Position numbers and translations under genes: made by a program
The notes under the pieces: model-generated
Databases searched by the model: none
What the model was told of the DNA's origin: nothing
The model's input: only the letters and a program-made list of their open reading frames with translations
Origin: an uncultured bacterium
Lineage (GTDB): Bacteria > Cyanobacteriota > Vampirovibrionia > Gastranaerophilales > Gastranaerophilaceae
Length of the DNA stretch: 64,000 nucleotides
Direction: 5' to 3'
Assembly (NCBI GenBank): GCA_949282215.1
Contig: CASDPF010000006.1
Span: 1 to 64,000, forward strand
Shown here: positions 4,982 to 61,634 of the stretch, piece by piece
Layout: each line of letters opens with the position of its first letter
Position numbering within the stretch: the stretch's first letter is position 1

Positions 4982-5032
4982 CTATTCCTTTACTCCTTCA
5001 TCTGAACTGTATAAATTTATTTTATCATAAAC

Positions 5033-27455: not shown

Positions 27456-27530
27456 TGGTGGCAGGGGCAGGAATTGAACCTGCTATCTCTTGCTTAGGAG
27501 ACAAGTGAGTTACCGTTACTCTACCCTGCA
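27456..27530 (-). tRNA. Initiator-like tRNA with CCU anticodon (reads AGG)
   Basis: A complete 75-nt cloverleaf with an encoded CCA. D stem GAGT/ACTC, anticodon stem CTTGT/GCAAG with loop CTCCTAA (anticodon CCU at 27496-27498), T stem GCAGG/CCTGC, loop TTCAATT, discriminator A. The acceptor TGCAGGG pairs with CCCTGCC except at the first position, leaving U1 x C72. An unpaired 1:72 and an A11:U24 pair are known marks of bacterial initiator tRNAs; elongators have a paired 1:72 and normally Y11:R24. Acceptor and T arms also resemble initiator tRNA from memory. The three G:C pairs of the initiator anticodon stem are absent. Position 20 is U, not the A20 used for arginine identity in E. coli. It lies in the early operon between the 27629 gene and ssb. 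Which amino acid it carries is unknown. Confidence 0.9.
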
Positions 27531-32588: not shown

Positions 32589-32591
32589 AGG
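32575..32591 (+). promoter_or_regulatory. Shine-Dalgarno and AGG start, zinc-ribbon-like gene
   Basis: AGGAG (32575-32579), a 9-nt spacer, then AGG (32589-32591) followed by GAA TGT TGC. Confidence 0.7.
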
Positions 32592-38930: not shown

Positions 38931-38936
38931 TCTAGG
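38922..38936 (+). promoter_or_regulatory. Shine-Dalgarno and AGG start, tail tube gene
   Basis: GAGGA (38922-38926, inside the end of the previous gene), a 7-nt spacer, then AGG (38934-38936) followed by ACT ATC ACT. Confidence 0.8.
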
Positions 38937-39605
38937 ACTATCACTTTTATTGATTTATACAATGAAATGACTGGTCAGGCTTGGTCAATGTTTGACGGCG
39001 AAGTCGAAGCAATGGACGAATTTGAAAGCTCCGTTACGACTTCTATCCAAAAAGCATTGAACTCATTATGGTGTTCTTATAAATTTCCATTCAGAAATAA
39101 AACTATGAAGTTTAAAACAAGGAGTGGAGTTAATCAATATTCCACTCCGAATGGAAATATAGCACAAAAAATATTGAAAAATAAAAAGGTTTACGGTGTT
39201 AAAATCGGTAAAAACTACCTTGAATATGAGCCGGATTTTGAAACCTTAGAGGATGAAACCGGAACCCCCGAAAAATTCTATGTAAAAAATGATAAATTAT
39301 TTTTATATCCTACTCCCGACGATAGCTATGATGTCGAGATAGAATATTGGACAATTTTTGCGGCTTGTGATGAGGACGGAAATTCAAAAGCTACATTGGA
39401 AGTCGACACAGATTATATTGATATTGATGAGAAATACGAGAGTATTTTCAAGGCGGCATTATTGCCTTTATGTATGGTTTATGCAATCGCTTCTGATTCC
39501 GATGAAAACCATTCAGGGTATCAAAGGCAATACGAGGACGCATACAAAATTCTAGTTGAATTTACTCGTGGTATTGAAATTGACAAAAGAATTGGGTGGC
39601 GATAA
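38934..39605 (+). CDS. Tail tubular protein A / head-tail connector, AGG start
   Basis: This 223-residue protein reads TITFIDLYNEMTGQAWSMFD after the AGG, a normal start of podovirus tail tubular A-like adaptors. It has beta-rich segments (YGVKIGKNYLEYEPDFET, VEIEYW). The first ATG in frame is 11 codons further on and would remove a conserved-looking helix. There is no GTG, TTG or ATG upstream in frame after the previous stop at a useful distance. The SD GAGGA is 7 nt before AGG. The gene ends overlapping the next by one base (TAATG). Confidence 0.78.
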   Translation, partial: RTITFIDLYNEMTGQAWSMFDGEVEAMDEFESSVTTSIQKALNSLWCSYKFPFRNKTMKFKTRSGVNQYSTPNGNIAQKILKNKKVYGVKIGKNYLEYEPDFETLEDETGTPEKFYVKNDKLFLYPTPDDSYDVEIEYWTIFAACDEDGNSKATLEVDTDYIDIDEKYESIFKAALLPLCMVYAIASDSDENHSGYQRQYEDAYKILVEFTRGIEIDKRIGWR

Positions 39606-39973
39606 TGTTTATAGTTGATGAAAAAACCGGAGATATAACTCTGACGCAGGGTGATACTGGAGAATATGTTGTATCGGGATTGCCTATTGACCAAAATTAT
39701 ACTGTTTATTTAGCTATTCAAGACGCTAACAGAAACCCTGTCGGGGATGAGCTTGTCGCTACTGCCAATTTAAGAAGTAGCGTTTCCCTGAAGTTTACAG
39801 CAGCCTTAACTGATTTATTAACAGTTAAAAAGAACAACGATACAGAAACCTACTATTTTGGCGTAAAACTTTGCGATAAATTAGGCAACGAAGATACGTT
39901 ATTACTGGCTAATAAGCAAATTGGAGACCAAAATACAATAACGGTATATCCGAAGAAAGTTGAAGGTATCTAA
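39605..39973 (+). CDS. Beta-rich virion protein
   Basis: This 122-residue protein (FIVDEKTGDITLTQGDTGEY...) is beta-rich with an Ig-like or collar-type pattern. It starts in TAATG overlap with the tail tube gene. The end overlaps the AGG of the next gene in TAAGG. It may be a tail or fibre-attachment protein. Confidence 0.65.
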   Translation: MFIVDEKTGDITLTQGDTGEYVVSGLPIDQNYTVYLAIQDANRNPVGDELVATANLRSSVSLKFTAALTDLLTVKKNNDTETYYFGVKLCDKLGNEDTLLLANKQIGDQNTITVYPKKVEGI

Positions 39974-39975
39974 GG
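39962..39975 (+). promoter_or_regulatory. Shine-Dalgarno and AGG start in TAAGG overlap, tail fibre-like gene
   Basis: GAAGG (39962-39966), a 6-nt spacer and AGG (39973-39975), whose A is the last base of the upstream TAA stop. This mirrors the usual TAATG coupling. Confidence 0.8.
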
Positions 39976-41079
39976 GTTGATGTTTCAAGTAAAAATAATA
40001 ATATAAGAGTTTCTGTATCATCAAGAAACAATATTAATGCTGTCGAGACATCAAACAGCATGGCTGAATATTGGGCAGATATTGCCGAACAATGGGCAAC
40101 ATCTGATAATATGGTTGAAAATACCGACTATTCGGCAAAGTATTATGCACAAAAAGCCGAAGATAATGCCGAAACATCTGATAGTTTGTTACAACAAACA
40201 AAAAACGCAGCAGAAAAGGCACTTGATGATATTTCTCAAAACGCTCAATCTTCGTTAAGTGAAATGTTGGAAACAAAGAATAGTTATGTAGCAACTATTC
40301 AGGAAACAGCAGAAACAGCAGCCGAAAGTATTGAAACACAAACTGAAACAGCAATAACATCTATAAAAACTGAAGGAGCTACACAAAGAGCAGCATTGCA
40401 AGCAGATGTTGCAACAGCACAGCAGGCAGCAGAAGAAGCAGCAGACAGTGCGGCGGAAGCATTAACGAGTGAACAAAATGCGGCTTCATCCGCAAGTCAG
40501 GCATTATCGAGTAAAAACGCTGCAAAAACCAGTGAAAACAATGCAAAAACTTCTGAAAACAATGCGAAAACCTCTGAAACAAATGCGTTAAATTCCGCAA
40601 ATACTGCAACAAGTAAAGCTACGGTTGCAACAACACAGGCGGGAATAGCAACGACGCAGGCAGGAATAGCAACAACAAAAGCGGGAGAAGCTGCGGACAG
40701 TGCAACCGCAGCAAGCCAATCAGCAGCAACAGCACAGCAGGCAGCAGAAGAAGCCACTAAGGGAGTTCAGCCCGCAACGACAACATCTCTTGGCGGAGTT
40801 ATAGTAGGTGAAAATTTATCAGTCGAAACTGACGGAACTATTAAAGCTGATGTCGGCATTGACGATATTCCTACAAATGTGTCGGAATTAGTAAATGATA
40901 AAAATTACTTATCATCTAATGACACAATAAAAGTTCAAGAAATTGAACAAGACGAGTATAATAATTTGGCAGTTAAAGATCCAAATGTTTTATATATTAT
41001 TTGTACTCAATTTTTGATTTGGGGGACTGCTTCTTGGGGTGTAGGAACGTGGGGACTGCAAGATGCCGAGACTAATTAG
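39973..41079 (+). CDS. Tail fibre-like coiled-coil protein, AGG start
   Basis: This 368-residue protein reads VDVSSKNNNIRVSVSSRNN after AGG. It then has a long Ala-rich coiled coil (about 70-260, many QQAAEEAADSA-type repeats), a beta region (TTTSLGGVIVGENLSVETDG), and ends with a Trp/Gly motif FLIWGTASWGVGTWG. This is the layout of a trimeric short tail fibre or spike stalk. The next ATG lies 29 codons later, inside the conserved N-terminal attachment region (AEYWADIAEQWATS). AGG overlaps the upstream stop. Confidence 0.78.
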   Translation, partial: RVDVSSKNNNIRVSVSSRNNINAVETSNSMAEYWADIAEQWATSDNMVENTDYSAKYYAQKAEDNAETSDSLLQQTKNAAEKALDDISQNAQSSLSEMLETKNSYVATIQETAETAAESIETQTETAITSIKTEGATQRAALQADVATAQQAAEEAADSAAEALTSEQNAASSASQALSSKNAAKTSENNAKTSENNAKTSETNALNSANTATSKATVATTQAGIATTQAGIATTKAGEAADSATAASQSAATAQQAAEEATKGVQPATTTSLGGVIVGENLSVETDGTIKADVGIDDIPTNVSELVNDKNYLSSNDTIKVQEIEQDEYNNLAVKDPNVLYIICTQFLIWGTASWGVGTWGLQDAETN

Positions 41080-41212
41080 AAGTGCAGTATATTTAGGCGA
41101 ACATCAATTATCTTCCGGTGTTCCTTTGTATTTTCAAGGGAAGTTGGTCGAGAAAATGTATTTTAAAGGTTTTGTTGTCTATAGAATTACAAAAACGAAG
41201 GTAAATAAATGA
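41063..41212 (+). CDS. Small protein between fibre and nozzle genes
   Basis: This 49-residue protein (PRLIRSAVYLGEHQLSSGV...) overlaps the fibre-like gene by 17 bp and the nozzle gene by 4 bp (ATGA). It may be a small tail accessory protein. No family recognised. Confidence 0.55.
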   Translation: MPRLIRSAVYLGEHQLSSGVPLYFQGKLVEKMYFKGFVVYRITKTKVNK

Positions 41213-42756
41213 GCACAATTACACAGCTTATATGTAATAAATTTGGCGGAATAAGACAGAGAAATGCTGTATTTAGTGAAGATTTAATCACTGCTCAGGA
41301 TATTCAAAATGTTGAATTATATTATACCGGAACAAATGGCGGTGTAGGGATAAGAACCGCAAAAGGTAATATTTCCATAAATGATAGTCTTGAAAATAAA
41401 GAAAAAATTATCAATATTTTTGAGAGTATTCAGGGTGAACAAACCTATTTTTTTGTACATACTGAGGACAGCACGCAAGGAAAATTCTATCTATATGATA
41501 TGAATTATAATAATTTAATACTTAAAAAGAATGGTCTAAGTATTACCGGCGTGTCTAATGGGTTTGACGTAAGACAGGGTTGGTCTGATTTATTTTTCTT
41601 CACTAATGGTAAAGAAATGTTTACTATTGAAATAGGGGCAGAAAACGAGGAAGGTGAACTTGAAGAAGTCGTTGATATGCTCCTGAAAGATAGAGATAAT
41701 AGAGATGTCGTCGGTCTTGGTGCTGCATTATTTAATAATCGTCTCTTTATCTTCAATGATAATATTCTTTGGTACTCGGTTACATCTAATATTTACGATT
41801 TTTCAACAGCAGAATCGGAATGGACAACAACAGCAGGTTATATCGAATGTATTAAAAATATTACTGCAATTCACGAATATTTGGGGGCTCTTGCCATTTT
41901 TTATGAGGACAGCTCTCAATTATTAAGCGTATCAGACGGAGATTTTTCATTAAGCGACGATTCTCCGGGCGGATGTGCGGGGGTTCATTCTCTTGTATTT
42001 CACGATACTGATTTATTCTTTTATGATCATACTAAAAAGTCTGTTTTTTCATTTAAACAGGTTGTAAACGGTGAAAAAACATTAGGACAAAATGTCGCAG
42101 TTGAAATCCAAGAAGAATTATCAAAAATTGATATAACAAAAAGGAACAATATACAGGCGGAATCGGTGTTTTTGACCGACCGTAACGAAATATGGTTCAT
42201 TCTTCCGACATCTGATGAGAATTATTCTACTATTTTAATCTATGACTATTTAAAAGGAGAATGGGTTAAAAGAAAATCTCAAAAGATAAACGCCGTTAAG
42301 ATTATAAATAATGTTTTGTATTCCGCAGGAAACGACGGAAATATTTTAGAGGAGTACAATTCCAATACATTCAATGGGCAATATATAGAAAATTATTATA
42401 ATTTGTCTCCGTTCAATTTAGGAGCTATGAATACATTAAAAATCTTTGTATTTCCCCCGAGAGTATCCTTTGATTTGCCGTATTCAAATACTTTTTATGT
42501 GAAATACGTCAAAAATTACAATACATTCAAAAAACCGAAAATAAAATTAATTAAAAGTAAATTAAAAAACTTCCTTATTTGGGGCGTAGGTCTTTGGGGT
42601 ATTGATTATTGGGCGTCAAAAGCTACGAGTATTATAGGAAAGTTTCCGAATGCAACATTCAAGGTAATTGAAATTAGTATATATACTGAAAATTCTTCAC
42701 AAACTTTTTCTATCAAAAATATAGAATTCAGCAAAATAAAGGTAAAACAAGTATGA
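41209..42756 (+). CDS. Tail nozzle / stabilisation-like protein
   Basis: This 515-residue beta-rich protein has repeats like NVELYYTG, RLFIFNDNILWYSV and EIWFILPTSDENYSTIL, consistent with the beta-propeller of podovirus tail nozzle proteins (gp10/TTB-like). It contains FLIWGVGLWGIDYWA (about 460-475), which resembles the C-terminal WG motif of the tail fibre-like protein. Located after TTA- and fibre-like genes. Confidence 0.72.
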   Translation: MSTITQLICNKFGGIRQRNAVFSEDLITAQDIQNVELYYTGTNGGVGIRTAKGNISINDSLENKEKIINIFESIQGEQTYFFVHTEDSTQGKFYLYDMNYNNLILKKNGLSITGVSNGFDVRQGWSDLFFFTNGKEMFTIEIGAENEEGELEEVVDMLLKDRDNRDVVGLGAALFNNRLFIFNDNILWYSVTSNIYDFSTAESEWTTTAGYIECIKNITAIHEYLGALAIFYEDSSQLLSVSDGDFSLSDDSPGGCAGVHSLVFHDTDLFFYDHTKKSVFSFKQVVNGEKTLGQNVAVEIQEELSKIDITKRNNIQAESVFLTDRNEIWFILPTSDENYSTILIYDYLKGEWVKRKSQKINAVKIINNVLYSAGNDGNILEEYNSNTFNGQYIENYYNLSPFNLGAMNTLKIFVFPPRVSFDLPYSNTFYVKYVKNYNTFKKPKIKLIKSKLKNFLIWGVGLWGIDYWASKATSIIGKFPNATFKVIEISIYTENSSQTFSIKNIEFSKIKVKQV

Positions 42757-43127
42757 TTAAAGTCTATATCCCGAGTGATTTTGATTTTAATTATAAACAA
42801 TGCAAAAAGCTATATAAAAAATATCAAAAACAAATTGGTGATGATGTTGATTTCCGTGATGTAGTAAAAAATACTTTTTTTTATTCCTTTTTTGATGACG
42901 AAAAACATATTGGGTGTATTTATTACTACGAAAAAGACGGAAAATTATTTGTTAATGCTTTTGCTAACAGACATACTCACGAAATAAATATAACCTGTCT
43001 CAAAATGACTTTTGATTGGTTTAATTGTGATATTTATGCAAAAACAGCACATAAGACGGCGATATTTTGTCTTTATAAGTGCGGTTTCAAAAAAATTGGT
43101 GATAATTTATACAAATATGAGAGGTAA
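42753..43127 (+). CDS. GNAT-like acetyltransferase
   Basis: This 124-residue protein has the general strand/helix order of a GNAT fold (IGCIYYYEKDGKLFVNAFA, then KTAIFCLYKCGFKKIGDNLY, which matches the typical C-terminal KLGF-like motif). Some podoviruses carry an acetyltransferase-like internal virion protein beside the tail genes. The acetyl-CoA loop is not clear, so activity is doubtful. ATGA overlap with the nozzle gene. Confidence 0.6.
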   Translation: MIKVYIPSDFDFNYKQCKKLYKKYQKQIGDDVDFRDVVKNTFFYSFFDDEKHIGCIYYYEKDGKLFVNAFANRHTHEINITCLKMTFDWFNCDIYAKTAHKTAIFCLYKCGFKKIGDNLYKYER

Positions 43128-43132
43128 ACAAT

Positions 43133-43705
43133 ATGGGCGGCGGTTCTAAATCAAGTTCTAACAGTTCAAGCTCTACAACGTACAAGACGACAACGACGAC
43201 AAATCCGTATGTAAAATCAACTACGAATGACGGCGGTACAACTACGACATTACAGCCTAATACTGCGTTGTCAAGTGTTTACAATTTTACAAATAAAAAT
43301 ATGGACGCTTTGCTTGAACAGTATTTACATCCTGATTTAAACTCAGACTTAAATCAGGCTAAAATGAATGCTTATACAAAAACTCTTAATGATGAAACGA
43401 GAAAAGCATTAGAAAACAACATTATTACTCCGTTATCGCAAAGGAACATGATAAGGTCGAGCCAAGCTACTGATTTATACAATAATTTGGCAAATCAACA
43501 AAATGACGCAATTAGTGATTATGCAACATCATTATTGACGTCAAGTCAGAATGACACAGCTAATATGATAAATACGTTGATGAATTTGGCATTTCAAGGC
43601 TATAACGTCGTATCAGGCAACCAAGCTCAATCACTTAATACAAGCTCTGGTAATGCTGATAAGAAAAGTTCAGGTTCTTCAAGTAGTGTTTCTTATGGAA
43701 TGTAG
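43133..43705 (+). CDS. Ser/Thr/Asn-rich virion protein
   Basis: This 190-residue protein has a Ser/Thr-rich start (GGGSKSSSNSSSSTTYKTTT), a helical centre and another Ser-rich end. It lies directly before the ejection protein genes and is probably an internal virion protein. AGAGAGG precedes the start. Confidence 0.65.
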   Translation: MGGGSKSSSNSSSSTTYKTTTTTNPYVKSTTNDGGTTTTLQPNTALSSVYNFTNKNMDALLEQYLHPDLNSDLNQAKMNAYTKTLNDETRKALENNIITPLSQRNMIRSSQATDLYNNLANQQNDAISDYATSLLTSSQNDTANMINTLMNLAFQGYNVVSGNQAQSLNTSSGNADKKSSGSSSSVSYGM

Positions 43706-43713
43706 GGGGCAAT

Positions 43714-45510
43714 ATGAATAGTAACAATCTTTATTATCAAGAATATTTAAGACAGATAGCCGAAGAACAGGCAAGACAAAATCAAGCAGGCAGCCCATAT
43801 TCAAATTTAAAGGGATATGCTTCCAATATCGGTTCTTATGGCAATAATCTATCTCTTATCGGAAATACAATAAAAAATAATGTAGATAATGCAGTTGCTC
43901 AAAAATTCGGCTCCGGCATGGCTAATATTGGAAATACCTTATCAAACGGAGCAAACGCAGCTAATAATACGTTGAACGCCCCACAAAATTACTTCAAAGG
44001 AGTTGCAAAAAATACTCTTGGTAATGCTGCTTCAAAAGCAGGTCAATACTTGGCGACAAAGACAGGTTTAGCAGGTACAATAGGGGCAGGATTATCAAAT
44101 TTGGGAGCAGGTTTGACAGGTACAGCCGCCGGAACTGCCGCAGGTGCGGGTGCGGGAGCAGCGGCAGGAACAGCAGCAGGCACGGCGGCGGGTGCAAGTG
44201 CCGCAGGTGCGGGAGCAGGTGCAGCAGCAAGCGGGGCAGCCGCAGGCGGAAGTGCTGCTAGTGGAGCAGCAGCGGCGGGACCAATAGGAGCTCTCGTCGG
44301 TCTCGGTATAATGGCACTTCAAGGCTCTAACCGTAAAAGAGCAAAACAAAGCGGGCAAGCCTTATTAAACCAAACAAATCAAATAGTAAATCAAGAATCA
44401 GAAGCGGCTCTTAATCAAGCTCAACAAAATACAGCAGCTTTGCAGCAACAGTCAGAAAACGCACTAGCAAACGGGATAATGACTGGCGGGGCTGCACCTA
44501 TGCAATCCGAACAGCAGTATGACCCAATAGCAGAATATCAAGACTATTTAAGGCAAAGCGGTTATTCTGATGATGTAATAAACGGAGTGCCACAAGGACT
44601 AAATAGCGGCAATAAAGATATTGCAGACTGGATAGCACAATATAATCAAGGGGCAGCAGGTCAAAAAAATCCTATAAACGTTCCACAAACGCCCGAAGAA
44701 ATCGCCGCAGCACAAGCCGGAACATTTAATAACCCTGTACAAATGGGCGGGGTTAATCAAACTCAGTCCGTTAAAGATACATTGTTGAGCAAATTTGCTA
44801 ATGGATTGAGCGATTTTGCAAAAGGTTATCAGGAAAACAAAACAACAGCTTTTGCTCCTGAAAATCTGCAAGCAAATAATTCAAAAGGTAAAATGACACG
44901 TGCAGGCGAAGCTCTTGGAACTATTGCAAGAATTTCTCAAAACCCTACAGTACAAGGGCTCATTGCAGGCGGTTTATCTACAGCCTTAACTGGCAACCCG
45001 TTATATGGCTTAGGACAAGGATATAAATTCGCAAATAACAGGCAAATGAGTAATATCTATCAAAAAGCATTGCAAGATCAGGGTGTCAATGTTGATACCG
45101 GAATGTTTGGCAATGTCGGAAATGCAGATTTCAACTCATTAATGACGCCGCAATACAAACAATGGGAAAACGAACTCAAAAAAATCTATTATGATACACT
45201 CGCAGATTACAGAGCAGGAATGCTGAAAAACGCAGAAAAGAAAACAGAAATAGACGCAAATTACAAACAAAACAAACTGGAAATAGATAGAAAAAATGCT
45301 CAAAGTAACGCTATAAGAGCAAATAAGGTAGGTAGCGGCAGAAGCTCAAGTAAAACCCCTAAACCGCAAGATAACCCCGAATGGAGCGAAGATTTGGCGG
45401 GATATACTAAAAGATTAGCAGACCCGAAATACGCAGGACAAGTACAAAATATGAAAGCCGCATTTATAAAAAAATACGGTGTAGACCCTGATAAATATTT
45501 AAAATTGTAG
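43714..45510 (+). CDS. Ala/Gly-rich ejection protein
   Basis: This 598-residue protein contains a long Gly/Ala stretch (about 128-190, TAAGTAAGAGAGAAAGTAAG type), which can insert into membranes, flanked by Gln/Asn-rich helical regions. Short-tailed phages inject such proteins to build a channel through the envelope. The following gene encodes the giant virion protein. The GC-rich local composition reflects Ala/Gly codons. Confidence 0.7.
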   Translation: MNSNNLYYQEYLRQIAEEQARQNQAGSPYSNLKGYASNIGSYGNNLSLIGNTIKNNVDNAVAQKFGSGMANIGNTLSNGANAANNTLNAPQNYFKGVAKNTLGNAASKAGQYLATKTGLAGTIGAGLSNLGAGLTGTAAGTAAGAGAGAAAGTAAGTAAGASAAGAGAGAAASGAAAGGSAASGAAAAGPIGALVGLGIMALQGSNRKRAKQSGQALLNQTNQIVNQESEAALNQAQQNTAALQQQSENALANGIMTGGAAPMQSEQQYDPIAEYQDYLRQSGYSDDVINGVPQGLNSGNKDIADWIAQYNQGAAGQKNPINVPQTPEEIAAAQAGTFNNPVQMGGVNQTQSVKDTLLSKFANGLSDFAKGYQENKTTAFAPENLQANNSKGKMTRAGEALGTIARISQNPTVQGLIAGGLSTALTGNPLYGLGQGYKFANNRQMSNIYQKALQDQGVNVDTGMFGNVGNADFNSLMTPQYKQWENELKKIYYDTLADYRAGMLKNAEKKTEIDANYKQNKLEIDRKNAQSNAIRANKVGSGRSSSKTPKPQDNPEWSEDLAGYTKRLADPKYAGQVQNMKAAFIKKYGVDPDKYLKL

Positions 45511-45522
45511 AGGAAAAAATAA

Positions 45523-48500
45523 ATGGGATTATTTGACGAAATAGATAACGAAGTTTTGAGTGGGCAAACGCCGATAAATAATGCAAATACAAATAATACA
45601 GACTCGCCAAAAGGATTATTTGACGATATAGACAATCAGGTATTAACAGAAGAACAACAACCAAAACCCACTTTTGCAGATTCACATCCTTTTATAGCTT
45701 CTGTCCCCGAAGCAGGTAAGCAATTTGGCGTTAGAGCCGTAAAATCTTTTCCTGAATTTGCAAAAGGTTTAAATGATTTAGTTGCATTGGCGGGGGATAA
45801 AACACATCTTCAGGGATTATCTGATTTTGGACGTTCAAATGCTGAATTTTGGCAGCAGCAATCTGATAAAATTCAAATAGACCCGAAATATCAAGGTCTG
45901 CAAGGCTTAAAAAGTAAAGAAACATTGCTGCCTACGGTTTTTGGTTCAGTCGGAGACCAGTTTACGAATTTATTAACTGCTGCCGGAGGCGGTGCTGGCG
46001 GTGCAAAACTTGCCGCACAAGCAGGGTTAAAAGGTCTTGCAAAGGCGGGGGTTATCACAGCCGGAACATCTGTACCGAATTTAGCACAGGAAGGCTCATA
46101 TCTTGATAAAATAGACGCTTTTCAAGCTATTAATGGCAGAATGCCGACACAGGAAGAATTGGCACAAATCCAAAATGTAGCTATTGGAGAAAAAGCGGTA
46201 AATACAGCCCTTGAAACCGTATCTGACCGTTTATTATTCGGAAAGATATTCCCTGAAGGAGCGGTTACAAAAGGTGTAAAAGGTGTTTTGAAGAACGCCG
46301 GACAACAGGCACTAACAGAAGCCGGAACAGAAGGAATGCAAGAAAGTGTTTCTATCGGTGCGGAGAAATTATTAGGCTTGAATCAAGGTGATAATGCGTC
46401 AAGATTGCTAGACGCTATGGCTATAGGTGGCGTTACAGGCGGCGTAATAGGCGGCGGAAGTAACCTTGTTGCACGACCTTATAATACTCAATTTGCAGAA
46501 AATCAAAATAATAATGTTAATCCGGTCGAAGCTGTAAAAAATGTATCTGCACAAATTGTAAATAACGGAAAAGTTCTTTATGATTCGGCAGCAGATAGTT
46601 TCAATAATGTTGTAAATAATGTAAATAATGCGGTTAATCAGCCGAGTTCTTTTGATGTGCTTATGCAGCTTTCCCGTGAAGGAAATTTGCACAATAGACC
46701 TGCTGAATTAGCCCCGAATATTGCCGAAAAAGCTAAAGTTAAAAAGGCAAGAAAAGCCGTTAAGTCCCCTGAAACAATAAGTAATCAGTCAGAAAATACA
46801 AATACCGAAATTATGCCAGTCGAAAACGTACAAAATGCGGTAAGTGAAACTCAAAATCTGACGCCGGAAATCGCAAATAAAGAAAAAGTTTCAAAGACAA
46901 AAGCTAAACAGCGTGAAAAAGCTGCCGCAAAAGAAAGAGCAATCGCAAAAATTAAGGAAATAGCACCTAATATTACAGCAAAAAAAGAAGAACTCACTAA
47001 CGCACAAAAAGATGTCCAATTATCTAGATTAAAAAAAGAAGTCGGTATTGGCGGTATTCTGAGGGATGATGAAGGCAGTGTCTATGAAGTGTTAGACCAA
47101 AACGGCTACATGCGAAATGTTGATACGGGCGAAGTGTCTATTGGTGATGTAAAAAGAAGTTATGAAAAATATGTCCACGATAATAATGAATTACTGAAAG
47201 TTCAGCCTTTTAATTATGACGAGAATGCAAAAGGCGATACAAACAGGGATAACTATGTATTTTCAAAACAGGAAGCTGTTGACGCTTATAATAATTATAT
47301 TCAGAAGCCTACAGAAGCTAACCGAGAAATTTACCAAGATACTGTCGGCAGATTACACGAAGAATATCAACAAATTGAACCGGAATTAAAGAATACGAAA
47401 CCTCAAAACACGGTAAAAGTTCCGGCAAAATTACAAGAATTAGCTCCGAAAACTGTAGAAAAATTACAAAAAACAAATAGTCCAAAACAGAATAATGAAG
47501 TCAATAATAAAAATTTCAGAAAAATAAATGATGAGCATACGGCAAGAATTATGCAAGTATATAACAAATACACTCAACAAGAAATTCTTGCGGGTAAAGC
47601 TAATAGCGAGATAGAAGCTATCAATAAAGAATTTGAACCGTTGGAAAAAGTAGCGTTAGCCCCGAATATTACTGAAAAAGCTGCGAACAAGAAGGCTAAA
47701 AAATACAAAGCCCCGTCTAAAGAAATCCCTGAAGGAACGAGTAAAAAGGGTGATGTAGCTTGGTATTTGAACAAAGATGATAAAAAGCCTAAATTTTATA
47801 GCACAATGGCAGAATCAAATGAGATAGGTTTATTTAAAGCTGAATCGAATTCTTATGAAGAATTGTTGAGCAAGCTACCTTATGCACCGACATCAAGAGC
47901 AATAGTTGAATACTATCAGAAAGCCGGTGTTCCGTTTAGCGAATTTAATCCTGAATATAATGGGAATATACCTGAAACAACTAATAAAGGGGGTGTTTTA
48001 AATGGACATGTCACTGAGACTGTTAATGCAGACGGACGCCGAGTATCAGAGGAAAAAGAAACAGCAGGAGAGGAAAGCAGCGGAGTATCACAAGAAGAAC
48101 CCGCAAATGAAAGAACTTCTGATCAGGTCGGACGAGGAGACGACGTATCTGATGTCGGACGAGGAATAAGCCAAAAAGATAAAGAAATCATTGAGAAAGA
48201 GTACAAAAATCAACATGAGTTAAACAAAGCTATCGAGGATTATATAAACAATGGCGAATATAAAAAATATGCCGGTTCTGTTCGTATGCCGCAAGAAGTG
48301 AAAGATTGGCTCAAAAAATATTCCGGAGCAGGCGGGCTTGAAAAACAAGGGGCAGCAGGTAAAGGTTTGTTGTCTGAATACTATACCCCCGCAAATATTG
48401 TCAAGAAGATGTGGGATATAACTTCTCAATATGTTGATACAAACGGTGCTAAAGTGTTAGAACCGTCTGTTGGCGTGGGAAGATTTATTGAATATGCTCC

Positions 48501-51500
48501 GGAGAATACTTCCTTTGACGCTGTTGAAATGAATCCGGTTAGTGCAAGGATTACCAAAATCTTGTACCCTGATACAAATGTTGAAACTGGAGAATTCCAA
48601 GAAAGATTTATCAATAAAGAAAACAATACTCCGGTGAAAAACGTAGAAGGTAAATATGATATTGTAATCGGCAATCCACCATACGGACAGTACAGCGGAA
48701 GATATAAAGGAATGGGAGAAGGTAAAAAATTCTCACGACTTGAAGCGTATTTTATAAATAGAGGGCTTGATAGTCTAAAAGAAAACGGTGTTATGACCTT
48801 CATTGTCCCGAGTTCATTCCTTGACGGAGCAATCACCGCCGGAAAACAGGAAATTGGCAAAAAGTGTGAATTACTTGACGCTTATAGATTACCTGAAAAT
48901 ACGTTTAATACAACTTCCATAGGTACTGATATTGTGGTTTTAAGAAAAACCTCAAGCGGGAAAGAAACAAACATCAATCTTGGAAAATGGTTTGAAGCTC
49001 ATCCCGAAAAGATACTTGGAACAGTGGAGCAGAGAAAAAGCCGATTCGGCGGGAAAATGGAAAATTATGTCAAGGGTGATAAAAATGCCGTTGATTCTAT
49101 TGACACGTCTAAAAAATCTATTAAAAAAACTGAACTATCCGAAAATACCGGAGAGTTGAAGGGTTCTGTTGAAAAAACAGTTAAAAAGCATTCAACTGTC
49201 AAGAAAAACTTGACAACTGAAAAAGTCGGAAATACTGAATACAAAGAGTATGTTCCTAAAAATACCGTACCTGATGAAGATTTGCAATTATTCAATGATA
49301 CCCGTGTTGACGGGACATTGCCGAAAAGCAAATATTCTCCGAATGAAAAAGTTAATATGTATGACGGTGAATTGTACAATGATTTTAATTATCTTCAGGG
49401 CGATATTTACGAAAAATTGGACGCACTTGAACACGAAAATATTTCAGAAAACCAAAAGGAGATACAGCGTAAAAAATTAGAGAAGGTTCTTCCTAAGCCG
49501 AAAGAAGTTAAACAGATTCAATTCAATCCGACTTCTGATTTTATAAGAGAGCTTGTTATGGGGCAAGAGGAAACTACCGAATATGATTATTCTTCCAGAC
49601 AAGAAAGAAAGGTTACAAGACCTGTAACGCTTGATAAAAAATACTTGCAACATGTAGAACATTTGACAAATTCTGAGAGGGACGGCGTATCTACTTGGGA
49701 TATTCGGTCATTTATCAATGGTAATAAAATCAGAATAGATTATCATTATTCAAGCTATAGTTTGTCTAAAGCTGAAATGGAAAAAGAACGCAACATGCAA
49801 AAAGCGGCTTATTTGACAAAGCTGAAAAATACTGTAGATAAAACATTTAATGATTTTGTTCAAAATGAATTAACCAAAGAAGAACAAAAGAAATTGTCTG
49901 ACGCTTGGAACAGAAATTTCAATGCCGTCTATAACCCTGACTACGAACAAATGCCTTTGCTTATAAAAGAGCTCAACTCTGAATTTTATGGCAAACCGCT
50001 TGAGCTCCAAAATGTTCAGATAGAAGGTATTAATTTCTTGACCAATAAAGGGGTTGGGTTGCTCGGTTTTGAAGTTGGTACAGGGAAAACCTTATCAGGT
50101 ATTATAGCAACTGTCCGCAATATGCAAAGCGGAAGATGTAAACGTCCTTTAATCTTAGTGCCTAAACAAGTGAAAAATAACTGGATTAGAGAAATTAAAC
50201 AGTCTTTCCCGAATATGCCTGTCAATGATGTCGATAATATGAGCAAATTTTCGGGCGAAATCCCTGAAAATTCTCTCACAGTCGCAACCTACGAAGCACT
50301 AGGCAATATTTGGTATGGCGATCGTGCTGCCGTTGATTTGATACACGATATATATTCAGTATCAAATGATTTTAATCGTGATAGTACAGAACGTGGAAAA
50401 GAAAAGGCGAAAGAACGTGCAGGACAGATATTAGGTTTAGCCGAAAAGGGAAATAAAAAACAGTTCAGCATTCAAGATTTAGGCTTTGACCATATAACAG
50501 TTGACGAAGCACATAATTTCAAAAATTTATTTGCAGACGCAAAGGCAGACGGACAAGAAGGCAATACCTACGTTAATATCACAGGCGGTAGCACTTCTAC
50601 CCGTGCGGCACGCCTTTTCTTGCTCGCTCAATACATTTTGAATAATAACAATAATCGAAATGTATTTATGTTGACCGCAACTCCGTTTAACAATAGCCCG
50701 ATTGAAGTATTTAATATGATGTCTTTCATTGGCAAAGATAAACTTGATAAAATGGGCTTATATAATGTTTATCAGTTTATGGAAAACTATGCTGATATAA
50801 GCTCTGATTGGATAGTAAATAGCAGAAACGAAGTCGAATATAAACAAATAGTGACAGGGTTCAAAAATGCAGGTTCTTTAAGAGAATTGATTAAATCAGT
50901 AATGCTTATAAGAAGTGCAGAGGACGCAGGTATTAAAAGACCTGAAAAATATACTAGACGTGTTGTGCTTGAACCTAGCCAATCTCAATTAGATTTAATT
51001 GCAAAAGCTGAGCAAGACGCAGTTTCGGGTAATAAAAATGACGGAGCAGTATTAAAAGCCATAAATCAGTCAAGGAAAGCTACTTTGTCTCCTGATATTG
51101 CAGCAGATAATTTTGACGTTTCCCCTGAAGATTTAATTAAAAATTCGCCAAAATTAGAGTATATTGCAAAAGCAGTTGCGTCTATGAAGAAAAAAGACCC
51201 GAAAACTTCACAGTTAATATATATGCCTTTAGGGGTAAAATATTTACCGAAAATTAAGCAATATTTTGTTAATAAAGGAATTTTTAAAGCTGATGAAGTA
51301 GCGATTATTGATTCCGGCGTATCAGACGATAAAATTTCACAAATAACGGACTCCTTCAATGACGTTGACGGTAAAGTAAAACTTATCATTGGAACAAATA
51401 AAATAAAAGAGGGTATGAATTTAAACAAAAATTCGAGCGTTCTTTATGTTCCTTATATGGACTGGAATCCGACAGACTTTATGCAGATTGTCGGCAGAAT

Positions 51501-54500
51501 TTGGCGTAGAGGTAACAGATACTCAAAAATAAGGGTTGTTGTTCCTTTGCTCAAAAATTCTTCTGATTCTTTTATGTTCCAAAAGTTAAACGAAAAAACT
51601 GACCGTATTAATAACATTATGGATGAAAGCAGAGAATATATAGATACATCCGAACTCAATACAGCAGAAGAAAAAATTAATATGATTTCTAATCCTGACA
51701 AAAAGGTTAGAATGTTCATAAAAGTTGAACAGCAAAAACTCGAAGCTCAAGTTAAAGAACTTCAGGGACGGCTTGAAACGGCAAATTCTTATAAGAATAG
51801 TCTTGAATCTGACGAAAGAATACTAAAAAATACTCAAGAAAGATTTAATAATCTAAAAAAAGAAATCAAAGAGCTAGATCCTGAAAAAAATAAATGGGAT
51901 TATGAATATAAAACCGACAATATGAACAGATACAAACGTGATATTGCCGCTTATACGGCTTCTTTAAAAAGAACAAAAGAAAAAATTAAACGTTTGGAGT
52001 TAGATTTTGAGGGTAAAGATTCGGAAGATGTTATAAATTCTGAAATACAGAAGATTCAGGAAAATATAAACCAGTTAGAAGAATACGGTAAAAAGAAACT
52101 CGTTGAATATCAAAAAGAATATGAAAGTGAACGTTTGAACAGTAAAACTGTATCGGACTTAATAAAAGAGTTTGAGAGAGATACTGAAACCTTGTACGAA
52201 GGCGGTTCGGAATCTTTTGAAATGCCTATAATAACAAACATAGTCAATAATTATAAAGATTTTACCGCTTTCAATGATAGTATCAAAAATGGTAAATCAA
52301 TAAAAGAATTATGCAAAACAGAGCCACTATTTATGGAGCTTAAAGATGAGCTTTCTGATGTCTCTGATTATATTGTTACGGCTATGCCGCAACGTCTACA
52401 GCGTAAAGGCGTTTTTGGCAAACATTACGGAAGCCAAAAACTTATACATCTTAATATGGCTGCAATAGGTGATAATGTAGAAGTTTTTACAAGAACGCTT
52501 ATGCACGAAATTCAGCACGCAAAACAAGAGAGCAGATATAGAGAATTGCTTTCAAAAGGTAAAAATTTTACAGAAAAAGAAAAAAGTTTTATAAAATCTT
52601 TTCAGGAATGCAAAAGAGTAAACAGAGAAAAACAAAATTTTTACAATAAACACAGAAAATTTCTTGATGATATAATGAAGGGGCTCAACGGATTAAATGT
52701 TGAGCAAAAACAAAATTTTATCAATAATTTATCTCCTAAAGAACGAGATATTGTTGATAAATATTATGAGTTATACGAAAATTATAAAAATGCTGCATTT
52801 GAGGTAGAAGCAAGAAAGGCAGGAAAATCTTATGCGGAAGAAATCAGAAGGCTTAACAGTGGAAAAACTGACAGAATTACAGGAATACGCAGAGAGTGGG
52901 CAGTTCGAGCAGGATCACATGGTGGTTCTACCGAAGGACAAAGACGGAGAAGTTATCCACTTGGACGATATGACGCCGGAGCAAGCGAAGATGTTGGGAT
53001 TGGATTAAGCGGTTTAAGGAGGCAGGCAGAACAACAGAATATCGCCGATAAAGCCGAAAAAGCAACCGAAGAATTGCTTGATTATAACAATATCGATGAA
53101 ATATTGCCAAAAGTAAAAAATTCTAGATTTACTATATTAAAAAAGGTTTTTACTCCAATCTCCACAAGATTAGAGGAAATTAATCCAAAATTAAAATATG
53201 CTATACGTAAATTTGAGTATGATTTTACTCAAACTGAAAATAAATACGCAGCAGCAATTAAACCATTTATTGAAAAATTAGATAAAATGCCCGTAGCTGA
53301 TTATGCAAAGTACGATTTAGCGTTAAAAAATGGTAAAACTGATATTGTAAATGCGTTAAATGAAAAATACGGGATTAAATCAGAATATAAAGCAGTAAGA
53401 AATTTACTCGACAAAATTAGACAAGAAGCCCTTGATACTGATTTAGAAGTAGGAATGATTGAAGATTATTTTCCAAGAAAAGTTATCAATCCTGCTGCTA
53501 TCATAGAACACTATTCAAAGAGCTCCTTTATAAGAAAATATTTGCGTGAAATTGACCCATATAACACGTTATCTGACGAGGAAAAGCTCGCTAAGATTAA
53601 TAGTGCGTTGAGAGGTACGAATCAGGCAATAAAAACTACATCTTCTTTTACCAAAGGACGTAAAATTTCCAGTATAACAAAAGACCTTAATCGATATTAT
53701 AAAGATAGTCGCTCTGCATTGGTAGATTATATTACCAATATGAATAATGCTATACAGGTCAGAAAATTTTTTGGTAAGGGTGATAATCTTGACGAATCTA
53801 TCGGAAGCTACACAAAAAATTTACTTGATAACGGATTGATTAGTCCTGCCGAAGAAACAGAACTGAAAGAAATTTTAAAATCTCGTTTCACACAGCATGG
53901 TGTAAGCGGAATTGTATCTGACCTGAAAAATATCGGATATGTTAGCACTATGGGAAACCCGTTCAGTGCAATTACTCAAATCGGAGACTTAGCATTTACT
54001 CTTTATAGAAATGGAGTTTGGAATAGTTTTCTCGGGTTAAAACAAACCGTTTCAAGAAACAATAATATAACAAAAGAGGATTTGGGGATTTCTAAGATTG
54101 CACAGGAATTTGAATCCGATAGCAAAACAGCTAAGTTAGTTGATAAAACCTTTAAATTTGTAGGCTTGGATTATATAGATAGGCTTGGTAAAGAAACTTA
54201 TATAAATGCTTCTTATCAAAGGCTGAAACAGCAAGCTGATAAAGCTATCTTTGACGGGAAGGTGCAGAAAAAATCAAAATTTTACAACGAGTTGCACGAT
54301 ATTTTTGGCAAGGATACAACAAAAGTAATCAAAGATCTGTCAAGCGGCAGAATATCAGAAAATGTGAAATATTTATTATTTTGTGACATATCAGATTTTC
54401 AACCTATTAGTTTGTCAGAAATGCCGCAAGTGTACTTGACGTCAGGTAATGGCAGGATTGCTTATATGTTGAAAACTTATAGCATAAAATTAGTTGATGT

Positions 54501-55236
54501 TTACCGTAACGAAGTTTTTAGACAAATGAAAACGAACCCTAAAAAGGCAATCGGGAATCTTGTCAGATTAACATTCTATACCGCCATGCTTGGTGTTGGT
54601 GCTGATTCCTTGAAAGATTTATTAATGGGACGTGAGATAAATCTTGGAGATACATTCCTCGATAATATATTTAAATTAGCAATGCTTTCAAAATATCAGG
54701 TTGAGAATTTCAGAAAAGACGGTATCGGAAAGGCTCTTTTATCAAGTGCATTACCACCGACTAACGTTTTTGATGATTTGTATAAAGATATTACCGATAA
54801 AAAGATATATACAGGCGAAAAACCAGTAACTAATATAAAAACTATAAGGAATATCCCTTTTGCAGGTAAATTATATTACTGGTGGTTCGGGGCAGGGAAA
54901 GAGGTTCGAGAAAAAGAATTTAAAGCTAATCGCAAAGCTGATTATTTGAGAGCCCTCAAAACTGGCAATCCTGATTTATCTCAAAGGAGCACCGATAAAC
55001 TTGTTAAAGCAGGGTATGACACAAAAGCAATAAACAAAATTAAAAAACGGGCTGAAAGTAAATATTCCGAACCTTATGAGAACGCATATAAAAAGGCATT
55101 ACAGCAACAAAACTATAATAAAGTGAGAAATATTGCGGATAAATTAGAGAGAGACAAAGTTCCGGCAACTTTACGGAGAGAAATTTATCTTAAAGCTCTA
55201 AGAGAATATTACAGCGAAAGGAGAGTTGCACAATGA
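45523..55236 (+). CDS. Giant polyvalent virion protein (methyltransferase, SF2 helicase, metalloprotease-like)
   Basis: This 3237-residue protein has two N-terminal tags (GLFDEIDNEV and GLFDDIDNQV, residues 2-12 and 31-40) and an N6-adenine methyltransferase domain with NPPYGQYSG near residue 1049 preceded by YYTPANIVKKMW near 950. An SF2/SNF2-type helicase follows: GTGKT near 1518, VDEAHNF near 1659, LTATPFNN near 1716, QIVGRIWRRGNR near 1987. A zinc-protease-like HEIQH lies near 2327, and a long helical C-terminus completes it. It is of the DarB/polyvalent type: ejected with DNA and thought to protect it in the new host. GAGGA precedes the start. Confidence 0.88.
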   Translation: MGLFDEIDNEVLSGQTPINNANTNNTDSPKGLFDDIDNQVLTEEQQPKPTFADSHPFIASVPEAGKQFGVRAVKSFPEFAKGLNDLVALAGDKTHLQGLSDFGRSNAEFWQQQSDKIQIDPKYQGLQGLKSKETLLPTVFGSVGDQFTNLLTAAGGGAGGAKLAAQAGLKGLAKAGVITAGTSVPNLAQEGSYLDKIDAFQAINGRMPTQEELAQIQNVAIGEKAVNTALETVSDRLLFGKIFPEGAVTKGVKGVLKNAGQQALTEAGTEGMQESVSIGAEKLLGLNQGDNASRLLDAMAIGGVTGGVIGGGSNLVARPYNTQFAENQNNNVNPVEAVKNVSAQIVNNGKVLYDSAADSFNNVVNNVNNAVNQPSSFDVLMQLSREGNLHNRPAELAPNIAEKAKVKKARKAVKSPETISNQSENTNTEIMPVENVQNAVSETQNLTPEIANKEKVSKTKAKQREKAAAKERAIAKIKEIAPNITAKKEELTNAQKDVQLSRLKKEVGIGGILRDDEGSVYEVLDQNGYMRNVDTGEVSIGDVKRSYEKYVHDNNELLKVQPFNYDENAKGDTNRDNYVFSKQEAVDAYNNYIQKPTEANREIYQDTVGRLHEEYQQIEPELKNTKPQNTVKVPAKLQELAPKTVEKLQKTNSPKQNNEVNNKNFRKINDEHTARIMQVYNKYTQQEILAGKANSEIEAINKEFEPLEKVALAPNITEKAANKKAKKYKAPSKEIPEGTSKKGDVAWYLNKDDKKPKFYSTMAESNEIGLFKAESNSYEELLSKLPYAPTSRAIVEYYQKAGVPFSEFNPEYNGNIPETTNKGGVLNGHVTETVNADGRRVSEEKETAGEESSGVSQEEPANERTSDQVGRGDDVSDVGRGISQKDKEIIEKEYKNQHELNKAIEDYINNGEYKKYAGSVRMPQEVKDWLKKYSGAGGLEKQGAAGKGLLSEYYTPANIVKKMWDITSQYVDTNGAKVLEPSVGVGRFIEYAPENTSFDAVEMNPVSARITKILYPDTNVETGEFQERFINKENNTPVKNVEGKYDIVIGNPPYGQYSGRYKGMGEGKKFSRLEAYFINRGLDSLKENGVMTFIVPSSFLDGAITAGKQEIGKKCELLDAYRLPENTFNTTSIGTDIVVLRKTSSGKETNINLGKWFEAHPEKILGTVEQRKSRFGGKMENYVKGDKNAVDSIDTSKKSIKKTELSENTGELKGSVEKTVKKHSTVKKNLTTEKVGNTEYKEYVPKNTVPDEDLQLFNDTRVDGTLPKSKYSPNEKVNMYDGELYNDFNYLQGDIYEKLDALEHENISENQKEIQRKKLEKVLPKPKEVKQIQFNPTSDFIRELVMGQEETTEYDYSSRQERKVTRPVTLDKKYLQHVEHLTNSERDGVSTWDIRSFINGNKIRIDYHYSSYSLSKAEMEKERNMQKAAYLTKLKNTVDKTFNDFVQNELTKEEQKKLSDAWNRNFNAVYNPDYEQMPLLIKELNSEFYGKPLELQNVQIEGINFLTNKGVGLLGFEVGTGKTLSGIIATVRNMQSGRCKRPLILVPKQVKNNWIREIKQSFPNMPVNDVDNMSKFSGEIPENSLTVATYEALGNIWYGDRAAVDLIHDIYSVSNDFNRDSTERGKEKAKERAGQILGLAEKGNKKQFSIQDLGFDHITVDEAHNFKNLFADAKADGQEGNTYVNITGGSTSTRAARLFLLAQYILNNNNNRNVFMLTATPFNNSPIEVFNMMSFIGKDKLDKMGLYNVYQFMENYADISSDWIVNSRNEVEYKQIVTGFKNAGSLRELIKSVMLIRSAEDAGIKRPEKYTRRVVLEPSQSQLDLIAKAEQDAVSGNKNDGAVLKAINQSRKATLSPDIAADNFDVSPEDLIKNSPKLEYIAKAVASMKKKDPKTSQLIYMPLGVKYLPKIKQYFVNKGIFKADEVAIIDSGVSDDKISQITDSFNDVDGKVKLIIGTNKIKEGMNLNKNSSVLYVPYMDWNPTDFMQIVGRIWRRGNRYSKIRVVVPLLKNSSDSFMFQKLNEKTDRINNIMDESREYIDTSELNTAEEKINMISNPDKKVRMFIKVEQQKLEAQVKELQGRLETANSYKNSLESDERILKNTQERFNNLKKEIKELDPEKNKWDYEYKTDNMNRYKRDIAAYTASLKRTKEKIKRLELDFEGKDSEDVINSEIQKIQENINQLEEYGKKKLVEYQKEYESERLNSKTVSDLIKEFERDTETLYEGGSESFEMPIITNIVNNYKDFTAFNDSIKNGKSIKELCKTEPLFMELKDELSDVSDYIVTAMPQRLQRKGVFGKHYGSQKLIHLNMAAIGDNVEVFTRTLMHEIQHAKQESRYRELLSKGKNFTEKEKSFIKSFQECKRVNREKQNFYNKHRKFLDDIMKGLNGLNVEQKQNFINNLSPKERDIVDKYYELYENYKNAAFEVEARKAGKSYAEEIRRLNSGKTDRITGIRREWAVRAGSHGGSTEGQRRRSYPLGRYDAGASEDVGIGLSGLRRQAEQQNIADKAEKATEELLDYNNIDEILPKVKNSRFTILKKVFTPISTRLEEINPKLKYAIRKFEYDFTQTENKYAAAIKPFIEKLDKMPVADYAKYDLALKNGKTDIVNALNEKYGIKSEYKAVRNLLDKIRQEALDTDLEVGMIEDYFPRKVINPAAIIEHYSKSSFIRKYLREIDPYNTLSDEEKLAKINSALRGTNQAIKTTSSFTKGRKISSITKDLNRYYKDSRSALVDYITNMNNAIQVRKFFGKGDNLDESIGSYTKNLLDNGLISPAEETELKEILKSRFTQHGVSGIVSDLKNIGYVSTMGNPFSAITQIGDLAFTLYRNGVWNSFLGLKQTVSRNNNITKEDLGISKIAQEFESDSKTAKLVDKTFKFVGLDYIDRLGKETYINASYQRLKQQADKAIFDGKVQKKSKFYNELHDIFGKDTTKVIKDLSSGRISENVKYLLFCDISDFQPISLSEMPQVYLTSGNGRIAYMLKTYSIKLVDVYRNEVFRQMKTNPKKAIGNLVRLTFYTAMLGVGADSLKDLLMGREINLGDTFLDNIFKLAMLSKYQVENFRKDGIGKALLSSALPPTNVFDDLYKDITDKKIYTGEKPVTNIKTIRNIPFAGKLYYWWFGAGKEVREKEFKANRKADYLRALKTGNPDLSQRSTDKLVKAGYDTKAINKIKKRAESKYSEPYENAYKKALQQQNYNKVRNIADKLERDKVPATLRREIYLKALREYYSERRVAQ

Positions 55237-55484
55237 TATTAGCAGCAATACAGGCATTTTTTGAAGCTCTTAAAAGCGGTTTTTCTTATGCAGAAACAGC
55301 AAAAGAAAATCAATGCGAAACAGAAGTTTTGAAAGAAAAAAGACATCAAGAGAAGCAAAATGATAAACAGGAAGATTTACTTATTGATATGGCAAAATTA
55401 CTTTTGAAGTATCAGGGGGTAATGACCAAGACCGACAGAATAAGGGTAAATGTTTATACAAAAAGAATTAAGGGGGTAAATTAG
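55233..55484 (+). CDS. Small late protein
   Basis: This 83-residue protein has a helical, partly hydrophobic N-terminus (ILAAIQAFFEALKSGFSYAE) and a charged remainder with many Lys/Glu. It overlaps the giant gene by 4 bp, and its TAG stop overlaps the next AGG start (TAGG). A lysis-cassette role is possible from position only. Confidence 0.65.
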   Translation: MILAAIQAFFEALKSGFSYAETAKENQCETEVLKEKRHQEKQNDKQEDLLIDMAKLLLKYQGVMTKTDRIRVNVYTKRIKGVN

Positions 55485-55485
55485 G
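55470..55485 (+). promoter_or_regulatory. Shine-Dalgarno and AGG start in TAGG overlap, small membrane gene
   Basis: AAGGGGG (55470-55476), a 6-nt spacer, AGG (55483-55485). Two bases of the upstream TAG stop are part of the AGG. Confidence 0.78.
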
Positions 55486-55758
55486 TCAGAGACATTCGTA
55501 GAATATGCACCTATTTTGGTTGTTGTTATAGTTTTTTTATTCAAAAATAGACTTTTTGTTACCCCCGAACAGTTAGAAAAAAGAAGTGCTGCTATTTTAA
55601 AAGAAGTTGAGGAGCGTTTTGTTACATTGTTGCAGTATTCAGAGTTTAAGGCTTTTGTATCAACTCGTTTTGATGAGGGGGCTAGGCGTTTTGACCACCT
55701 CGACAAAGGAATAGATGATATAAAAAATTGTTTAGTACATTTAGCAGAAAAGGAGTAA
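55483..55758 (+). CDS. Small membrane protein, holin/spanin-like, AGG start
   Basis: This 91-residue protein reads SETFVEYAPILVVVIVFLFK after AGG. It has one N-terminal membrane helix (about 8-24) and a long charged coiled coil (LEKRSAAILKEVEERF...). This matches a type III-like holin or an inner-membrane spanin. No ATG or GTG is available near; a TTG 11 codons on would cut into the membrane helix. AGG overlaps the upstream stop. Confidence 0.75.
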   Translation, partial: RSETFVEYAPILVVVIVFLFKNRLFVTPEQLEKRSAAILKEVEERFVTLLQYSEFKAFVSTRFDEGARRFDHLDKGIDDIKNCLVHLAEKE

Positions 55759-56926: not shown

Positions 56927-56931
56927 TTAGG
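56918..56931 (+). promoter_or_regulatory. Shine-Dalgarno and AGG start, DGR target gene
   Basis: GAGGTG (56918-56923), a 5-nt spacer, AGG (56929-56931) followed by AGC GGA ACA GTT. Confidence 0.8.
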
Positions 56932-59820: not shown

Positions 59821-59839
59821 AAAGGAGCGTGTAGGCAGG
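59821..59839 (+). promoter_or_regulatory. Shine-Dalgarno and AGG start, terminase large subunit
   Basis: AAAGGAG (59821-59827), a 9-nt spacer, AGG (59837-59839) followed by GAA TAC GAT TTA TTA. Confidence 0.82.
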
Positions 59840-61132: not shown

Positions 61133-61148
61133 AAAGGAGTTCATCAGG
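61133..61148 (+). promoter_or_regulatory. Shine-Dalgarno and AGG start, amidase
   Basis: AAAGGAG (61133-61139), a 6-nt spacer, AGG (61146-61148) followed by AAA AGA ATT ATT. Confidence 0.85.
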
Positions 61149-61634
61149 AAAAGAATTATTGTACATTGGACAGCAGGAACAAATCAGCCAAATTCGCACG
61201 AATTTGATTGTTATCATTATTTAGTCAACGGAGACGGACTTGTTGTTGCGGGGAAACACAAACCCGAAGATAATGAGAATTGCAATGACGGAAATTACGC
61301 AGCACATACTGGCGGTGGTAATACAGGCTCTATTGGCGTTGCTTTGTGCGGCATGGCAGGGTTTGTTAATCGTCAAAATGTAGGTAAATATCCGTTGACA
61401 AAAGTACAGTGCGAAGCAGCATTCAAACTTATAGCTGAAATCGCCAAGAAATATAACCTAGATATTACCCCTCAGACCGTCATGACACATTATGAATTCG
61501 GTTTAAACAATCCAAAAACAACAAGTGCGGGGAAGATTGATATTGTCTATCTTCCGCCTTATCCTGACGTCATTCAAGCAGAGGTTGGCAATTATATCAG
61601 GAATAAAGCTCGTTGGTATAGAACTAAGATTTAA
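61146..61634 (+). CDS. N-acetylmuramoyl-L-alanine amidase endolysin, AGG start
   Basis: This 162-residue protein reads KRIIVHWTAGTNQPNSHEFD after AGG, the exact conserved start of T7-lysozyme/PGRP-type amidases (normally MKRIIVHWTAG or close). Zn ligands are visible: H in IVHWTAG and H in VMTHYEFG. It cleaves cell-wall amide bonds at lysis. The next ATG lies 66 codons on and would delete the first zinc ligand, so AGG is the only sensible start. It ends the phage late region and is followed by a terminator. Confidence 0.92.
   Translation, partial: RKRIIVHWTAGTNQPNSHEFDCYHYLVNGDGLVVAGKHKPEDNENCNDGNYAAHTGGGNTGSIGVALCGMAGFVNRQNVGKYPLTKVQCEAAFKLIAEIAKKYNLDITPQTVMTHYEFGLNNPKTTSAGKIDIVYLPPYPDVIQAEVGNYIRNKARWYRTKI

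Follow-up and report, generated by a model that had tools for sequence, protein, structure and literature searches.

Two gene borders of a Gastranaerophilales prophage raise the question whether translation can begin at AGG and, if so, which tRNA reads it. The window, i.e. the whole stretch of DNA analysed here, comprises 64,000 nucleotides (positions 1-64000 of contig C6; genome 2.19 Mb).

AGG in the place of ATG at stop/start junctions

At the first border, TAAGG at 39971-39975, the stop codon TAA (39971-39973) of ORF 39605-39973 overlaps an AGG (39973-39975) that opens the frame of an ORF listed from ATG 40060; an in-frame stop is found immediately upstream of this AGG, and there is no ATG, GTG or TTG in frame between the AGG and ATG 40060. 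At the second border, TAGG at 55482-55485, the stop codon TAG (55482-55484) of ORF 55233-55484 overlaps AGG 55483-55485. A sequence-only reading had noted that AGG thereby occupies the position of ATG in the overlaps TAATG (39603 and 32013) and ATGA (41209) of the same prophage, and had taken AGG for a true start codon; both junctions read as it described.

Its expectation that TAATG and TAAGG would alternate at one border among related phages was borne out: the end of the gene orthologous to ORF 39605-39973 reads TAATG in five related loci (L170, L175, L178, L181 and L190) and TAAGG in the window. In L085, ATG GTA AAT GTA TCT corresponds to AGG GTT GAT GTT TCA of the window. The outcome that would have spoken against it, real starts elsewhere and an unconserved AGG, was not encountered, the codons aligned to AGG starts being themselves start codons. 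AGG is thus very probably a genuine start codon in this prophage.

AGG-started genes of the prophage and their homologues

A scan for starts preceded by a Shine-Dalgarno (SD) sequence identified nine AGG-started genes in the window (Table 1) and more than 20 in its relatives. Among ORFs without a canonical SD-preceded start, an AGG at SD distance was found for 7 of 20 in the prophage, whereas the contig's host portion gave 0 of 20; the figures were 18 of 160 for phages of the same clade and 4 of 367 for related phages from outside it (Fisher p = 9e-8 for the excess in the prophage); the four cases outside the clade apparently sit in non-coding frames. For the terminase, endolysin and Mtd-like genes no canonical start preserves the conserved N-terminus.

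Table 1. Features of the AGG-starting prophage in the window
Feature	Position	Strand	Remarks
TAAGG overlap, first junction	39971..39975	+	TAATG at the orthologous border of relatives
TAGG overlap, second junction	55482..55485	+	downstream gene: ATG start in homologues, at this codon or adjacent to it
Initiator-like tRNA gene, anticodon CCU	27456..27530	-	labelled tRNA-Arg(CCU) by ARAGORN
Zinc-ribbon-like (zinc-finger) small protein	32589..32957	+	AGG start, SD AGGAG; lies right after the repressor
SU10-type head-tail adaptor (PF24175)	38934..39605	+	AGG start, SD AGGA; aligned with ATG in 42 homologues
Tail-fibre-like protein	39973..41079	+	AGG start within the TAAGG overlap
Small membrane protein	55483..55758	+	AGG start within the TAGG overlap, SD AAGGGGG
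Mtd-like tail/receptor protein (PF21916)	56929..58152	+	AGG start, SD GAGGTG
Terminase large subunit (PF04466)	59837..61132	+	AGG start, SD AAGGAG; ATG, TTG or AGG in relatives
Amidase_2 endolysin (PF01510)	61146..61634	+	AGG start, SD AAGGAG
EcoRI-methylase-like early gene	21351..21902	-	AGG start, SD TAAGGAG
Early gene, function unassigned	23218..23718	-	AGG start, SD GAGGTG
Possible tenth AGG start, left out of the count	20733..21281	-	SD AGGAG; SD-bearing ATG 12 bases on

About 160 related loci, mostly from Candidatus Gastranaerophilales gut genomes, were collected with portal and terminase queries; the product of the gene at 55483, used as a query against viral contigs, yielded no relatives. 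In 33 AGG-start columns the homologous codon was ATG in 608 cases, GTG in 55, TTG in 21 and AGG in 77, a canonical start lay within two codons in 364 and the codon was another one in 37; these counts are not independent, since queries of the same family overlap. AGA or CGN was never aligned to any of the 33 AGG starts. The AGG codons inside the same proteins (n = 2328) show a distribution unlike this one, being aligned to AGA (577), AAA (318), AGG (182), CGT (142) and ATG (42), among others. The terminase gene starts with AGG in the window and in L089, L164, L165 and L088, and with a canonical codon in nearly all of the other approximately 75 homologues. AGG also starts genes for the portal (L042, L047), the capsid (L042), tail proteins (L036, L088, L047) and the integrase (L088), the integrase, RusA and replication-type genes of L191, and the Mtd homologue of L089 (81% identical).

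A reverse transcriptase gene (PF00078, 58498-59808) follows the Mtd-like gene, which makes a diversity-generating retroelement with an AGG-started target protein probable in this prophage. A protein of 3237 residues encoded at 45523-55236 combines Eco57I-methylase and SNF2-helicase domains; it probably travels in the virion and serves in anti-restriction or DNA modification.

A phage tRNA with the build of an initiator

The early operon of the prophage contains, between the gene for SSB and an ORF of 84 aa, a tRNA gene with the anticodon CCU; further genes of this operon encode RecT and a YqaJ recombinase. Methionyl-tRNA formyltransferase recognises its substrate by an unpaired 1:72 position combined with G2:C71 and C3:G70, and the window tRNA has a U1.C72 mismatch (according to the covariance alignment), G2:C71 and C3:G70 as well as A11:U24, A57 and an encoded CCA. 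A tRNA is found at the same place in six further loci, and in none of them is the anticodon CAU: it is CCU in L036, L040, L041 and L049, GCCU within an 8-base loop in L045, and CCA in L052. A related CCU copy is present in L191.

In an alignment of eight copies 94.6% of the pair cells are standard, with strong covariation. The 1:72 position is non-standard in seven of these eight, the letters varying, and is unpaired in genome G039 too; overall it is mismatched in 8 of 10 phage copies, the exceptions being weak pairs (A:U in L191, U:A in G308). G2:C71 and C3:G70 occur together in 7/8 copies, all except L052. R11:Y24 is found in three (A:U in the window and L049, G:C in L036) and U:A in the other five, and the three consecutive G:C pairs of the initiator anticodon stem are missing in most copies. 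Of 30 host tRNAs, the initiator alone lacks a 1:72 pair; it is an ordinary one, with C1.A72 and three G:C pairs in the anticodon stem. The host also has its own tRNA-Arg(CCU), with 1:72 paired and A20 present, and the acceptor end of the host tRNA-Arg(CCU) in L016 is likewise paired. The 1:72 mismatch of initiators, and the need for the three G:C pairs in P-site binding in E. coli, have been described (PMC2268962).

The phage tRNA has neither the CAU of methionine tRNAs nor the A20 of the host arginine tRNAs; the phage copies mostly read GGTA or GGCA where host Arg tRNAs read GGATA or GAATA. The CCU anticodon should abolish the usual recognition by MetRS. Compensation of codon usage by the phage tRNA was rejected on codon counts: per 1000 codons there are 3.6 AGG in phage genes and 3.9 in host genes, with no internal enrichment.

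Co-occurrence of the tRNA and AGG starts

The CCU tRNA and AGG starts occur together. In the portal tree, the phages with AGG starts make up 13 of the 15 rows of one clade (support 97), the other two rows being fragments of 4 and 6 kb; a separate portal lineage (L191/L251) has AGG starts and the CCU tRNA as well. Several contigs of the clade are fragments that stop short of the tRNA locus. Outgroup loci with the flanking sequence contain no such tRNA, and a search of the related loci with the tRNA model did not add any copy at this locus, its remaining matches being ordinary tRNAs, contig-end pieces and the tRNA of L032. Outside these phages, the best full-length matches of the model include an initiator tRNA(CAU) and, again, the L032 tRNA.

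In 383 genomes of the host family the model found, above the set limit, only the window, G039, G308 and one ordinary initiator. G039, till then untested for the tRNA, was located through it, and the contig with this tRNA carries the zinc-ribbon gene with an AGG start behind GGAGGT; on its portal contig an AGG start was not found. The tRNA of G308 (L268, 2187-2257) belongs to the same family, has U1:A72, adjoins an SSB-like gene and comes from another host genus. Its context looks like a prophage remnant, no AGG start was seen around it, and G308 was excluded from the support for co-occurrence.

Proposed mechanism

We consider it highly likely, judging from the sequences, that the phage carries an initiator tRNA with an anticodon switched from CAU to CCU and dedicated to AGG starts. 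AGG would then be a second start codon, read by a phage tRNA of the initiator type, whose acceptor end retains the marks of recognition and formylation of bacterial initiators (unpaired 1:72, G2:C71, C3:G70). With these features retained, the tRNA would be expected to enter the ribosomal P-site with IF2, where CCU would pair fully with an AGG approximately 5-9 bases behind the SD site; internal AGG would stay arginine by means of the host tRNA-Arg(CCU). Because the tRNA gene is among the early genes, AGG-started proteins would be made only once the early operon is transcribed, and the gene likeliest to be licensed in this way would be the zinc-ribbon one, which heads the late operon. The start codon, the initiator-like build of the tRNA and the joint occurrence of the two are seen in the sequences; what we infer is that the tRNA is formylated and enters the P-site, which amino acid it carries, and that it has a licensing role.

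When the anticodon of the E. coli initiator tRNA is replaced by engineering, translation begins at the codon complementary to the new one, and the synthetase corresponding to that anticodon does the charging (PMC2268962). An in vitro survey of initiators bearing each of the 64 anticodons covered 328 codon-anticodon pairs, and mismatches at the first or second base gave little or no initiation (PMC10158994). By analogy, the host initiator would not be expected to start at AGG, but a CCU initiator could.

Alternative explanations

The zinc-ribbon gene starts with AGG in all eight clade members scored and in two more that were read (AGGT in L045), against 17 of 168 instances for other genes (Fisher p = 6e-8). 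This suggests that selection acts on the AGG start of this gene, and hence that the tRNA of the early operon may give it a translational licence. For the other AGG genes, drift after the tRNA had arisen is as good an explanation. In such a neutral ratchet the tRNA made mutations from ATG to AGG tolerable and the drifted mutations now retain the tRNA; this rivals only the proposed purpose and leaves the mechanism unchanged, and we give it somewhat less than an even chance. It is consistent with the set of AGG genes, which varies by phage and includes early and late genes, and with the free alternation of ATG and AGG in the terminase, endolysin and portal genes, but drift does not predict an AGG in the zinc-ribbon gene of every readable member. 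As a purpose, licensing and neutral drift stand about equal. A strict limit of AGG to late genes, considered as a further possibility, is refuted by its use in early ones, both in L191 (the three genes named above) and in the window (21902, 23718). From the variation of the anticodon between phages (CCU, GCCU and CCA) one may also speculate, though we think it rather unlikely, that the tRNA is an evolvable key which, with a matching start codon of a regulator, forms a private early-to-late switch unreadable by the host and by competing phages.

As to the mechanism itself, the AGG start could be read by mispairing of the host tRNA-fMet(CAU), the phage tRNA being an ordinary elongator tRNA-Arg(CCU) that aids the translation of AGG codons. 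The ARAGORN label, the frequent carriage of rare-codon tRNAs by phages and the low share of AGG among arginine codons here are in line with this, and yet we find it improbable. The paired acceptor end of elongator tRNAs serves EF-Tu binding, and it is missing in most phage copies; their 1:72 mismatch is retained although its letters change, and it would harm an elongator. The phage copies also lack A20, internal AGG codons are not more frequent than in host genes, and outgroup phages from the same host order, with the same host initiator, are without AGG starts. Finally, AGG is not near-cognate to CAU, if at least two pairs including the middle base are required: its middle base is mismatched, and such mismatches gave no or almost no initiation (PMC10158994).

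Still less probable, in our estimate, is that the AGGs are ordinary arginine codons and that translation starts at internal ATGs or at rare ATT or ATA codons, or continues from the preceding gene by frameshift. In-frame ATGs do exist further in (e.g. 40060, 38967) and two of the AGGs overlap the preceding stop; however, conserved N-terminal residues lie between the AGG and the internal ATGs, the aligned codons are canonical starts and never arginine synonyms, and the zinc-ribbon gene, which no other gene adjoins upstream, is preceded at a few codons' distance by in-frame stops. Sequencing or assembly errors or decaying pseudogenes, conceivable for metagenome assemblies that include a relative (L052) with frameshifts in the genes for portal and RecT, can be practically dismissed, as AGG starts persist over 40-67% protein identity in contigs that are independent and stem from different samples, each time with an SD in front and the frame otherwise intact.

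Comparison with known systems

The proposed CCU initiator shares with the bacterial initiator tRNA-fMet (CAU) the unpaired 1:72, G2:C71, C3:G70 and A73, in the window copy also A11:U24, A57 and an encoded CCA, and the use of starts preceded by an SD sequence. It differs in the CCU anticodon, in the absence of the three-G:C anticodon stem, in that R11:Y24 is not general, and in being encoded by a phage and, presumably, working beside the host's own initiator. The principle, initiation at the complementary codon by an initiator body with a changed anticodon, is that of the engineered E. coli initiator mutants (UAG and GUC starts; PMC2268962) and of the 64 anticodon variants used in vitro (PMC10158994); those are laboratory constructs, whereas the present case would be natural, with many genes and a phage clade adapted to it. 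Rare natural starts such as GUG, UUG, AUU and the GTC of Streptomyces sigR (PMC5472188) employ tRNA-fMet. They resemble AGG in being non-ATG starts with a possible regulatory effect, but are read by the normal initiator, whereas the middle base of AGG does not pair with CAU and AGG would have a dedicated tRNA.

Some phages recode stop codons with suppressor tRNAs. There, too, the anticodon of a phage-encoded tRNA has changed and a codon is reassigned in phage genes, but that tRNA acts in elongation on a stop codon, whereas the CCU tRNA would act in initiation, with internal AGG still read as arginine. Start codons are generally regarded as set by a single, universal initiator tRNA; a second initiator with a different anticodon would show that initiation, like stop codons, can be recoded in nature. 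In the literature within our reach, which excludes most subscription papers and preprints, neither a natural initiator tRNA of altered anticodon nor an AGG start in bacteria or phages came to light, and the present case, if true, would be the first natural one of a start codon altered by a dedicated starter tRNA. It would then also provide a ready orthogonal initiation pair, and it would become testable whether phage development uses initiation as a private switch for timing. Gene finders would miss or truncate such virus genes, here those for the terminase, the endolysin and the receptor-binding protein.

Variant and outlying tRNAs

In L045 (IMGVR_UViG_3300028805_000209) the zinc-ribbon gene (4687-5061) starts with AGGT, one base above its relatives, and the tRNA at 96-167 has the 8-base anticodon loop with GCCU; together these suggest a four-base start codon. 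The contig ends L045 96-167 and L086 1-60 overlap within the tRNA, where two bases differ between them; this may reflect a mixture of strains. The L052 tRNA (1611-1681) with its CCA anticodon has A1.C72 and G73; no convincing UGG starts were seen in this 11 kb contig.

The tRNA pattern also matched L032 (8130-8201), a CCU tRNA with A1.A72 and A11:U24 in what is apparently an unrelated prophage of the clostridial siphophage type. A capsid fragment of L032 begins at a TAAGG overlap. AGG starts are doubtful there: the portal gene likely has a one-base frameshift after an ATG, and the capsid piece is short. L032 is possibly an independent case. In distantly related phages, tRNAs with the anticodon CAU were observed in L235 (7748-7819) and L240 (2388-2459); that of L235 is initiator-like (A1.A72, A11:U24) and possibly represents the ancestor type of the CCU tRNA.
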